A stretch of 64,000 bases of DNA from Bacteroidia bacterium (GTDB taxonomy: Bacteria > Bacteroidota > Bacteroidia > UKL13-3), in contig JAIOYZ010000008.1 in NCBI GenBank assembly GCA_021740845.1, positions 62,001-126,000 on the forward strand. The letters are read 5' to 3'. Positions 36,548-40,888 of this stretch are shown here, piece by piece (the first letter of the stretch is position 1; every line of letters starts with the position of its first letter). The translations under genes and the position numbers were made by a program. The notes under the pieces were generated by a model. The model was not told where the DNA came from, did not search any database, and saw only the letters and a program-made list of their open reading frames with translations.

Positions 36548-38218
<1,671 letters not shown>

Positions 38219-38261
38219 ATCAGGATTGGGTTGGAGTGTGAGGGTGAGAGAGGAGATCCAA

Positions 38262-38302
38262 ACAAAAAAAAATCCCGGAATTTTATTCCGGGATTTTTTT
38301 TT
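38262..38302 (+). terminator. Strong intrinsic terminator after groEL
   Basis: AATCCCGGAA and TTCCGGGATT form a 10-bp GC-rich stem flanked by an A-run and a T-run of about nine, so it can work in both directions. Confidence 0.92.
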
Positions 38303-38308
38303 GCATGA

Positions 38309-38540
38309 TTTTGCCGGCGCAGGATGCAGGGACAGGTCGAGACCTTTCCTTACGGGGCGAATGGGCGGAATTTTGCGGGGGCAGGGTGCAGGGATGGATG
38401 GGAATTTTGCCGGCGCAGGATGCAGGGACAGGTCGAGACCTTTCCTTACGGGGCGAATGGGCGGAATTTTGCGGGGGCAGAATGTGGGGACAGGTCGAGA
38501 CCTGTCCTTACGGGGCGAATGGGCGGATTTTTTTTCAGGG
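38309..38540. repeat. GC-rich REP-like repeat cluster next to a RAYT gene
   Basis: Units begin TTTTGC[C/G]GG at 38309, 38371, 38405 and 38467, in the order long (62 bp), short (34 bp), long, long. Each long unit has a near-palindrome, complete in the last one (GGACAGGTC-GA-GACCTGTCC, 38488-38507), then CCTTACGGGGCGAATGGGC. The GC content is far above the surroundings. All three frames are open across it, which reflects composition, not coding. The adjacent REP-associated transposase gene is the probable source of its spread. Confidence 0.8.
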
Positions 38541-38665
38541 AAATAGGATTTTTTTTTAGGAGGCGAAAAGATTGAGGGTGCGGAATGAAATGATGTTTTT
38601 TTTAAAGCAGGAGGATTTTAGGGATTTGATAGTTGATTGATATTTCTATCTATTTTGGTGTTTCA

Positions 38666-38681
38666 TTTGGTTCGAACCAAA
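38666..38681. repeat. Perfect palindrome TTTGGTTCGAACCAAA before the RAYT gene
   Basis: A fully symmetric relative of the iterated motif (core GGTTCGAACC, 38669-38678), 14 nt upstream of the transposase ATG. A second exact copy lies at 46834-46849. Confidence 0.75.
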
Positions 38682-38694
38682 AAATAATATTCCT

Positions 38695-39321
38695 ATGAAA
38701 CCCCTAAAAAATAGAAGGCTCAATCGATTAAAAGGCTTTGACTACAAGTATAATACCTTGTATTTTGTGACCTCTTGCGTTAAAAATAAGGTGTGTGATT
38801 TTGGGCAAATAATAAATGGAGAAATGCATTTGAGTGAGGAAGGTAAAATTGTTGAAGAGCAATGGAATTGGATGATTCAACATTATCCTTTGGCAAATTC
38901 TTATGGTTTTGTGGTGATGCCAGATCATGTTCATGGTATCTTAGGAATTATTAACCCTAAACTTGAAAACGAATACCAAATAACAAAGGTTGGCAAATCA
39001 ATTTTGAGAACTGAATCAAAAGAAGATGAGGATGAAGATGAGAATGAGGATATAAATGTAAATACTGGCGAATATTTAAAGGAAAATACTTTACCCAAAA
39101 TTAAATCTCTTTCTCAATTAATGGGGGCATTTAAAACAACCTCATCGAAGCGAATTCACTTACTTGGAAATGGCGCTTTTGCTTGGCAAAGATCTTTCCA
39201 TGAAAGAATTATTACCACTACCATTTCATTAGATAATATTCAGCGATATATTACAGATAATCCCAAAAATTGGAAAGCAAAAGAATTGCAAAAATGTAAA
39301 GCAAGGATTACATTTGAATAA
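38695..39321 (+). CDS. REP-associated tyrosine transposase (Y1/RAYT), 208 aa
   Basis: A single-strand HUH transposase of the Y1_Tnp family. The histidine motif is H78-V-H80 in VVMPDHVHGI, and the likely catalytic tyrosine is Y185 in QRYITDNPKNW, at the position that Y115 holds in the E. coli RAYT. LYFVTSCVKNK and WQRSFHERII also match the family. An acidic insert (ESKEDEDEDENED) sits between. RAYTs mobilise or maintain REP palindromes rather than moving as insertion sequences, and the REP-like cluster lies about 150 nt upstream. No terminal inverted repeats bound the gene, so it is probably domesticated. Confidence 0.88.
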   Translation: MKPLKNRRLNRLKGFDYKYNTLYFVTSCVKNKVCDFGQIINGEMHLSEEGKIVEEQWNWMIQHYPLANSYGFVVMPDHVHGILGIINPKLENEYQITKVGKSILRTESKEDEDEDENEDINVNTGEYLKENTLPKIKSLSQLMGAFKTTSSKRIHLLGNGAFAWQRSFHERIITTTISLDNIQRYITDNPKNWKAKELQKCKARITFE

Positions 39322-39327
39322 TAAGCT

Positions 39328-39714
39328 ATGAAAAGAGAATTATTATTTCCACCTCATTTTAAAACCATTGGTTGGATTGTTTTACTAGCCTGCATTCCAA
39401 GTATTTTGTTTATGAAGTATATTGGCATGTATAGGCAAGATGCCATCAATCTTTCATCTATGCTAGCGATAATTGGCTTTATGATGACAGTATTTTCAAG
39501 CAAAAAAAATGAAGATGAAAGAACAAAATTATTGCGCTGGAAATCGTTGGGAAAATCGTTTACATTAATAATTTTACTGGTTTTCATTCATCAAGTATTC
39601 GACCTATTTAATTTCACATCAGACCTTATGCTTTCGGCTGGCCCGATGGGATTAATATATTTTGGAGCCATAAATTTTTACTTCAGCTTTTGGTTGGTAG
39701 ACAATGTTAGTTAA
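39328..39714 (+). CDS. Small membrane protein, paralogue 1, 128 aa
   Basis: Four hydrophobic segments and a central cytoplasmic loop with EDERTKLLRWKSLGKSF. The same loop recurs in the next two genes (EDERTMICRYKALGHTF, EDERTSICRYKALAGAF), so the three are paralogues. The pattern resembles DUF2178/DUF3796-type membrane proteins that often sit beside small XRE regulators; that family link is an inference. It starts 6 nt after the RAYT stop and might be co-transcribed with it. Confidence 0.75.
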   Translation: MKRELLFPPHFKTIGWIVLLACIPSILFMKYIGMYRQDAINLSSMLAIIGFMMTVFSSKKNEDERTKLLRWKSLGKSFTLIILLVFIHQVFDLFNFTSDLMLSAGPMGLIYFGAINFYFSFWLVDNVS

Positions 39715-39761
39715 CTTGACTTCTGATAAAGCAATTCATATTTAACTCCTAGCTTTATTTA

Positions 39762-39771
39762 GGTTCAAACC
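39762..39771 (+). repeat. Iterated motif GGTTCAAACC, intergenic
   Basis: In AGGTTCAAACCGAAAAA between the first and second small membrane protein genes. Confidence 0.8.
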
Positions 39772-39840
39772 GAAAAAATTAAATTATTTTGAGATTAAGC
39801 AGATTGTTAAAGGAATAATGACATTATGAAATTTTAACAC

Positions 39841-39889
39841 TTGCATTTATGTAAAGCTTACTTTACATTTGGACAAGTTAACTTTACAT
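39841..39889 (+). promoter_or_regulatory. Promoter and palindromic operator of the membrane-protein/XRE cluster
   Basis: A -33-like TTG (39841-39843) and a -7 box TACATTTG (39864-39871) are separated by 20 nt. ATGTAAAG-CTTA-CTTTACAT (39849-39868) is a perfect palindrome with a 4-nt centre overlapping the -7 box, and a further half-site CTTTACAT lies at 39882-39889, 21 bp on and just before the ATG at 39892. The layout suggests repression, most simply by the XRE protein encoded in the same cluster. Confidence 0.6.
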
Positions 39890-39891
39890 AT

Positions 39892-40272
39892 ATGATTAAT
39901 TATTTATTACCCAATGTATTTAAAAAACTGGGATTAGTCCTGATTATTTTATGTTACATTTTTATAGCTTTTGCAACTGATATGGGCATTAATGCAATTG
40001 AAAGGGAGAACATAATTATACTAACAGCTGTGCTTGGGTTTTTATTGATAATAAACAGCAAAGAAAAAATGGAAGATGAACGCACCATGATTTGCCGTTA
40101 CAAGGCCCTTGGACATACATTTAGGTTTGTATTGCTCTTTTTACTTTTTGCAACAATCATAGAAATCTTTAATCCCGAAATTCAAACTAGGCAAATAGGT
40201 ATTAGCTTCTTCACGGTTTCTATTTTGGAATATTATTCAACATTTGAAAAGCATTTGAAAAACGAGCTATAA
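39892..40272 (+). CDS. Small membrane protein, paralogue 2, 126 aa
   Basis: Four membrane segments with the loop MEDERTMICRYKALGHTF. The ATG at 39892 (MINYLLPNVFKKLG) is chosen because the longer frame to 39841 would translate the promoter and operator. Its N-terminus aligns with that of the next gene (LLPNKFKKIGW). The next gene follows after 21 nt, so the two form an operon with the regulator. Confidence 0.75.
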   Translation: MINYLLPNVFKKLGLVLIILCYIFIAFATDMGINAIERENIIILTAVLGFLLIINSKEKMEDERTMICRYKALGHTFRFVLLFLLFATIIEIFNPEIQTRQIGISFFTVSILEYYSTFEKHLKNEL

Positions 40273-40293
40273 AACCCATTAATAAAGCTAAAG

Positions 40294-40707
40294 ATGTTTA
40301 AACATTTACTCCCAAATAAGTTTAAGAAAATAGGCTGGGCACTAATATTCTTAGTTTGCCCACTATTCTTAATATTCTTTCCAAAATCAATATTAACAAT
40401 TGACCAACTAGTAGACATTGTTTCTATTATTGCGCTCATAGGCCTGTTGTTAACCATTGGAAGTGAAGAAAAGCTGGAAGATGAAAGAACAAGTATATGC
40501 AGGTATAAAGCTTTAGCAGGTGCATTTCTTGCATTTATTTCAATTACAATTACGGCCAAATTATTAAGTTTAATTCCTATTATCTCCTACATAATTCCTG
40601 GACATTTACATAAAGAAAACATTATAGATAATCCTATGTGGCTAATCTATTTTGCAGCATTTTTCTATCATATCAATTTTAGAGCGCTGGTAAGAAATGA
40701 AGAATAG
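40294..40707 (+). CDS. Small membrane protein, paralogue 3, 137 aa
   Basis: Similar to the previous two: LLPNKFKKIGWALIFLVCPLFLIFF at the start, and the charged loop EEKLEDERTSICRYKALAGAF between membrane segments 2 and 3. Its last 11 nt overlap the XRE regulator gene, indicating translational coupling and a functional link between the membrane protein and the regulator. Role unknown. Confidence 0.75.
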   Translation: MFKHLLPNKFKKIGWALIFLVCPLFLIFFPKSILTIDQLVDIVSIIALIGLLLTIGSEEKLEDERTSICRYKALAGAFLAFISITITAKLLSLIPIISYIIPGHLHKENIIDNPMWLIYFAAFFYHINFRALVRNEE

Positions 40708-40888
40708 GATACGACAAGAAAGGGCAGAACACCAACTATCACAGCAAGAATTAGCCGAAAAAATTGGGGTAAGCAGACAGACTATTATTTCAATAGAAAC
40801 TGGCAAGTATACACCCTCCACAGAATTGGCTTTGAAACTTTCTTTGGTTTTTGATAAATCTGTTAACGAGCTTTTTTCGTTAGACTGA
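40697..40888 (+). CDS. Small XRE-family transcriptional regulator, 63 aa
   Basis: A bare helix-turn-helix domain: RIRQERAEHQLSQQELAEKIGVSRQTIISIETGKYTPSTELALKLSLVF. It belongs to the Cro/CI group of minimal regulators often paired with small membrane proteins. It overlaps the upstream paralogue gene by 11 nt. The palindrome at 39849-39868, with a half-site beyond it, is the natural candidate for its binding site. Confidence 0.9.
   Translation: MKNRIRQERAEHQLSQQELAEKIGVSRQTIISIETGKYTPSTELALKLSLVFDKSVNELFSLD

Follow-up and report, generated by a model that had tools for sequence, protein, structure and literature searches.

Described REP/RAYT systems and position of the locus

Three published accounts describe the closest known systems. 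PMC6006769 (Quentin et al. 2018) reports RAYT/REP systems in Bacteroidota and divides the transposases into subclasses, of which subclass 2.4 has double-foot REPs and, as a feature unique to it, REP insertions within the transposase gene that as a rule lie between HuH and Y and keep the frame. REPs within subclass-2.4 genes have been published before, and so have intragenic REPs. GTAG-tagged REPs and REPtrons are the subject of PMC3733652 (Di Nocera et al. 2013), whose main text places these repeats in Proteobacteria, Cyanobacteria, Chloroflexi and PVC, Bacteroidetes not being among the groups named there; REPs within larger palindromes are reported in it for three species, as consensus sequences rather than site by site. 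The third account, PMC8266576, concerns E. coli TnpA_REP (subclass 2.2 or group 2; structure 4er8) and reports that it specifically recognises and cleaves the folded single-stranded REP.

The locus analysed here lies in a 64,000-nucleotide stretch of DNA from a Bacteroidia bacterium (hereafter the window), in which an array of repeat units stands upstream of a RAYT gene (Table 1). The pair shares with subclass 2.4, as PMC6006769 presents it, a WQ and a YIxNNP-like motif, a variable stretch inserted between HuH and the tyrosine, occurrence in Bacteroidetes, and long or double-foot GT[AG]G REPs flanking or inside the gene. In contrast, the window enzyme reads DHVH and YITDNP where Table 1 of that paper gives NH[IFV]H and YIxNNP, that is, D for N twice, and its subclass 2.7 ([ND]HVH, WQ, YI[LR][NQ]NP) is also near. 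The variable loop of the window protein contains an acidic stretch instead of a REP, and the palindromes, most of them degenerate, are all found upstream of the gene. Judged by motifs rather than by placement on the published tree, the enzyme appears to resemble subclass 2.4, or RAYT group 4, and not the enterobacterial group. With the GTAG-tagged REPs of PMC3733652 the locus has in common a short GC-rich palindrome with a GTAG-type foot beside a RAYT, both intergenic and intragenic copies, and REPs within larger palindromes; the motif GGACAGG is absent from the main text of that paper, figures aside. Fold, catalytic residues and a folded hairpin with a GTAG-type foot are shared with the E. 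coli system of PMC8266576. The E. coli REPs need a bulge for activity, whereas the window stem is a perfect palindrome without a bulge, as described for group 3. The initial annotation had likened the locus to the REP/RAYT pairs of enterobacteria and had seen in it a view of the system in Bacteroidota. The first comparison holds for the arrangement, a REP cluster beside its RAYT, and not for the enzyme or the bulge-free stem, so that the resemblance moves from the enterobacterial to the subclass-2.4 type; the second holds in that a REP/RAYT pair of Bacteroidota is at hand, although PMC6006769 had already described such systems there.

Table 1. Features of the array and its surroundings, in positions of the window.
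Feature	Position	Strand	Description
Bidirectional terminator hairpin after groEL	38263-38303	.	19-bp arms, 3-nt loop; z -6.38; borders the array, not part of the REP array
Unit 1	38310-38371	+	62 bp; same sequence as unit 3
Degenerate REP palindrome GGACAGGTCGAGACCTTTCC	38330-38349	+	One pair broken; 5' foot GCAG; in unit 1
Unit 2	38372-38405	+	34 bp; without palindrome
Unit 3	38406-38467	+	62 bp
Degenerate REP palindrome	38426-38445	+	In unit 3; defect as in unit 1; foot GCAG
Unit 4	38468-38529	+	62 bp
Intact REP	38484-38511	+	GTGG foot, GGACAGGTCGAGACCTGTCC (38488-38507) and TTAC; in unit 4
RAYT / TnpA_REP gene	38695-39321	+	208 aa; HUH 78-80, Tyr 185; low-confidence variable loop about 91-138

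Organization of the repeat array

The coordinates bear out the four GC-rich units initially proposed, with a G+C content of 0.61 in the array against 0.35 in the window. The array is separated from the groEL terminator by 6 bases, and its end lies 165 nt before the RAYT start codon, in agreement with the proximity to the transposase gene noted earlier. The palindrome, of the form GGACAGGTC-NN-GACCTGTCC, had been ascribed to the units collectively; it is present in three of them and is complete in one. The full arms are found only at 38488, while the copies at 38330 and 38426 read ...GACCTTTCC. As single-stranded DNA, the intact copy (38480-38515) folds at -8.7 kcal/mol with a z-score of -3.31, and the two copies with a broken arm fold weakly (-3.7 kcal/mol, z -1.07). 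The backward-read palindrome, used as a control, gave no match in the genomes searched, which indicates that the palindrome is not a chance occurrence.

Units 1 and 3 are identical at 62 of 62 positions, and unit 4 differs from both at 7 of 62. Since the broken copies share their defect, local duplication, rather than separate insertions, would most simply account for the newest copies, which lends support to the stepwise duplication suggested in the initial annotation. The units are head-to-tail direct repeats, not the paired inverted REPs of a REPIN or BIME arrangement. Three open frames of 83-122 aa cross the array and are probably non-coding. Other origins of the array or its units found no support. 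The 34-bp unit does not correspond to a precise excision of the 28-bp REP, as the 28-bp deletion that fits best is at another place and gives a match at only 27 of 34 positions. No Rfam family reached its gathering score over 38000-39400, most of the weak rows falling on the groEL terminator, and a plasmid origin of the array was not borne out, PLSDB giving no match.

The RAYT enzyme

The open reading frame is uninterrupted and carries H78, H80 and Y185, confirming an intact HUH transposase. Its motifs are DHVH, W164-Q165 and Y185-ITDNP, with N189 and P190 following the tyrosine. H78, H80, W164, Y185 and N189 are conserved without exception in the aligned relatives (18 of 18 and 65 of 65). The protein scores 25.1 bits against Pfam Y1_Tnp, above the cut-off of 23, and 46.2 bits against NCBIfam REP_Tyr_transpos (NF047646), below the cut-off of 80. 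The NCBI rule would consequently not name the protein; this cut-off is an annotation threshold and not a defining biochemical trait. A profile built from 18 relatives matched a single PDB sequence at E ≤0.01, namely 4er8, E. coli TnpA_REP (E 1.2e-6). The AlphaFold model has a mean pLDDT of 82.8, with low confidence in the loop at about 91-138. Among the 50 Foldseek rows listed, IS200/IS605 transposases stand at the top, and the highest TM-score by query length, 0.50, is that of 4er8. The invariant residues, the Y1_Tnp match and the fold match to 4er8 and the IS200 family together give the single HUH motif and one catalytic tyrosine in a Y1 transposase fold that characterize a RAYT. The window protein matches once in the host genome, where it leaves four other Y1_Tnp places unmatched.

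Copies in the host genome

The host genome contains six copies within one mismatch of GGACAGGTCNNGACCTGTCC, distributed over three contigs: three in the window, two on a second contig (C53:161 and C53:243) and one on a third (C63:45144). Confinement of the palindrome to this locus, which the initial annotation had named as contrary to its reading, is therefore not seen. A single-copy gene is thus accompanied by dispersed REPs and has cognate palindromes beside it, both RAYT traits, with a copy number that is low for a REP family. Two weaker copies occur at C29:179405 and C42:32887. The trait of GTAG-tagged REPs, a GT[AG]G foot adjoining the stem on its 5' side, is carried by the intact copy at 38484 (GTGG) and by the C63 copy (GTAG), and the foot is GCAG in the two degenerate copies and GTAT and GTAA in the C53 copies. 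Both C53 copies and the C29 and C42 copies lie outside any ATG-started open reading frame of at least 60 aa. The expectation that all copies would be intergenic fails at the C63 copy, which is in frame within a gene of the prolyl-oligopeptidase family (Peptidase_S9; gene at 108-2237 on the minus strand of locus L100, 1-4020).

The Peptidase_S9 site was compared across the 16 genomes of the host genus that cover it, the own genome included; the sequences of G002 and G016 do not reach the site and G017 has no match, and these three were left out. The REP is present in four genomes (G000, which is the host, G003, G011 and G013), in frame in all of them, and the last two have it twice. What is probably a remnant (TGRDLSS) is seen in G012, and 11 of the 16 have a short loop without the palindrome. 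This comparison with empty sites indicates that the palindrome was gained or lost as a block, and insertion is the simplest reading of how the REP at this site arose.

Distribution across genomes

Among 98 relatives searched, the own genome included, the palindrome occurs within one mismatch in seven, all of the host genus, with 6 copies in G000, 20 in G003, 5 in G011, 5 in G012, 11 in G013, 12 in G015 and 1 in G016. In each of G003, G011, G012, G013 and G015, no more than about 200 nt separate a copy from the closest RAYT. The exact palindrome was found in 5 of 395 genomes of the phylum, again counting the own genome: besides G000, these are G149 (1 copy), G370 (2), G393 (40) and G433 (1). 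The sole exact copy in G149 is inside the RAYT gene, upstream of the HUH motif.

A RAYT was detected by profile in 9 of the 11 distinct palindrome genomes, and the same search found none in G016 (68% complete) or G433 (82% complete). A palindrome frequent in genomes that lack any RAYT, an outcome named at the start as contrary to the pairing, was accordingly not encountered, with the caveat that the distant Bacteroidota genome G393 has 40 exact copies and RAYTs of other clades only. Both RAYTs of G393 belong to such clades, one being broken by a stop, and the RAYT of G370 falls outside the cognate clade; at the RAYT loci read in these two genomes, the core palindrome was not found and the RAYTs match other clades best. 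At the G393 loci L242-L247, many of the palindromes read have a GTAG foot on one side only.

Pairing of the palindrome with one RAYT clade

The association was examined in a sample of 112 RAYT loci, comprising 80 named loci, 31 others and the window. Because the named loci are the best 80 of at least 398 confirmed stretches and 20 loci were chosen among search matches, the sample has the window protein at its centre. Seven loci that are not full-length, among them L069, L160, L072 and L081, were excluded, which left 105. The core was defined as CARGTCnnGACYTG inside the open frame or at most 400 nt away, and clades were read from a quick tree with midpoint root and SH-aLRT support, without bootstrap. 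The core is present at 14 of the 105 loci, and a single set of 15 rows (SH-aLRT 97) contains all of them. Taken as a label, the core requires two changes on the tree against a mean of 13.4 in shuffles, none of 500 shuffles being as low. The set reaches from Bacteroidota to candidate phyla and covers the host genus and family, Segetibacter, Pontibacter, Flavobacterium, and one MAG each of Flavobacteriales, Magasanikbacteria and Parcubacteria; the Gracilibacteria row (L171) is the fifteenth and has no core palindrome in or near its gene. Among the excluded partial loci, L069 (G011) and L160 (a Chitinophagaceae MAG) have the core and match this clade best, and L072 and L081 match other clades best.

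In the host genus, a clade RAYT is found in six of the seven palindrome genomes versus one of the 12 others (Fisher p 0.0017, uncorrected for kinship). Assignment was by tree or by best BLAST matches; four of the 12 are without any RAYT match, and the assignment excludes RAYT fragments of G010 (C36, C51), G015 (C5) and G018 (C149, C166, C173). The one genome with a clade RAYT and without the palindrome is G001, which carries the variant GGACAAGTCGCGACTTGTCC just after the gene, and G021, of another genus, has the variant GGGCAGGTCGCGACCTGCCC inside its RAYT gene. These genomes offer natural variant pairs for recognition assays, with GGACAAGTC in G001 and GGGCAGGTC in G021. The match of clade and palindrome constitutes an independent cross-phylum test that the two belong together and, with the pattern in G015 described below, is the most useful part of the analysis. 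In a Magasanikbacteria MAG (L166, 4930-5609), the 28-bp palindrome of the genus lies both upstream of and within the RAYT gene; its presence at both places in a candidate-phylum RAYT suggests transfer between phyla.

Palindromes of at least 11 paired bases are located inside 54 of the 105 RAYT genes, against 1.4 expected after codon shuffling; two rows of this gene set are the same protein. Of 57 in-gene palindromes, 54 are between HUH and the tyrosine and 38 have GTAG...CTAC.

Mechanism and alternative explanations

The locus is a true REP/RAYT pair of the already described selfish-DNA kind, its copies few and mostly worn. We consider it very likely that it represents a small REPtron, in which a single-copy RAYT, most like subclass 2.4 or group 4, is coupled to a cognate GTRG-tagged palindrome, with slow or finished spread and local duplication. 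By analogy with the characterized enzymes, the protein would bind the palindrome in its single-stranded folded form and read the GT[AG]G tetranucleotide at the foot, which would guide cleavage; Tyr185 would cleave and form a covalent intermediate, and the enzyme would thereby move or copy the palindrome to new sites. Beside the gene, the array was probably enlarged by tandem duplication in place, in the course of which one broken stem was copied as well. With few copies, most of them with changed feet or stems, the spread by transposition in the host genome looks slow or finished.

Plain tandem duplication would also account for the 62-bp period, and the position of the array immediately after the groEL terminator, together with two broken palindromes out of three, would suit a local tandem repeat or a transcription-termination element next to which the RAYT stands by coincidence. 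The confinement of the core to one clade, at or inside the RAYT gene in 14 of the 105 loci and across phyla, largely refutes this coincidence, and the palindrome is also present at dispersed sites in several of these genomes; we regard such an origin as improbable. Even less credit is due to an ordinary IS200/IS605 transposase whose ends are the palindromes, as in a solo or decayed insertion sequence. The Y1_Tnp domain and the leading Foldseek rows would fit this reading. However, N189 and P190 follow the tyrosine where Table 1 of PMC6006769 gives Q for IS200, the profile finds no PDB sequence other than TnpA_REP, and the genome has one match to the protein rather than multiple near-identical full copies. 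Moreover, the palindromes lie on one side of the gene only, and the C53, C63, C29 and C42 copies are without a match to the protein.

A domesticated RAYT, retained to serve the host on folded DNA, with immobile palindromes as by-products or binding sites, is compatible with a REPtron, and we hold it to be possible, if on balance rather unlikely. The single match to the protein and the few, worn palindromes of the host agree with it, and PMC8266576 describes TnpA_REP as domesticated; nevertheless, the empty sites in the S9 gene and the 20 dispersed copies in the sister genome G003 indicate past spread.

REPs on hairpin axes in one genome of the genus

In G015, nine exact copies are flanked on each side by at least 20 nt, and eight of these nine sit exactly on the axis of an inverted repeat that adds 17-22 paired bases beyond the 28-bp element. 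Flank pairing of at least 8 bases is found elsewhere in one of 10 copies read in G013 and in none of those read in G003 (0/16), G012 (0/5), G011 (0/4) and G000 (0/3); G393 gave 0/11 (of its 40 copies) and G370 0/2, and G016, G149 and G433 gave 0/1 each. A cross-copy control within G015 gave 3 of 110. At loci L066, L105-L109, L113 and L114, almost all copies with sufficient flanks are centred on such a longer, site-specific inverted repeat, and several of these repeats resemble bidirectional terminators. In this genome, a copy is no more than 4 bases from an end of contigs C78 and C82.

Three of the G015 sites were compared with the orthologous places in other members of the genus. L114 lies between convergent genes, and 18 of 18 other genomes have there a hairpin that lacks the REP and is of the A-tract/T-tract terminator type (arms of at least 9). 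At L106, a hairpin occurs in 2 of 11 resolved regions (arms of at least 10), leaving out five genomes with one gene only, one with the genes 1.4 kb apart and one without a match. At L107, a divergent promoter region, none of 12 resolved regions has a hairpin, and six more genomes have one gene only. A general rule that the REP inserts in terminators fails at L106 and L107, and only L114 lends good support to insertion at a hairpin apex. That the clade RAYTs place the REP by structure and not by sequence, at the apex of pre-existing chromosomal hairpins including terminators, is a tentative and somewhat doubtful proposal. Since the terminator rule does not hold across the three sites, a variant may apply, in which the REP makes its own flanks palindromic through fold-back synthesis. 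If the former proposal is true, the hairpin apex would be a nearly neutral landing site and insertion there would lengthen terminators; the G015 pattern, if general, would suggest how REPs choose harmless sites. No report of REPs in terminator loops was found among the titles and abstract openings covered by a literature search, and a search for words starting with "terminator" in the main text of PMC3733652 found none.

Neighbouring genes and enlarged variable regions

Directly after the RAYT gene, at 39328-40888, three similar proteins of about 130 aa are encoded in tandem. They look membrane-like by eye, have a DERT motif in common and no Pfam match above cut-off, and are followed by a 63-aa HTH_3 protein. 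The variable regions of some RAYTs are enlarged into tandem peptide repeats, which are DEN-rich at L072 (2129-3205, in G018) and of the QPQPEN type at L074 (2085-2828, in G036).
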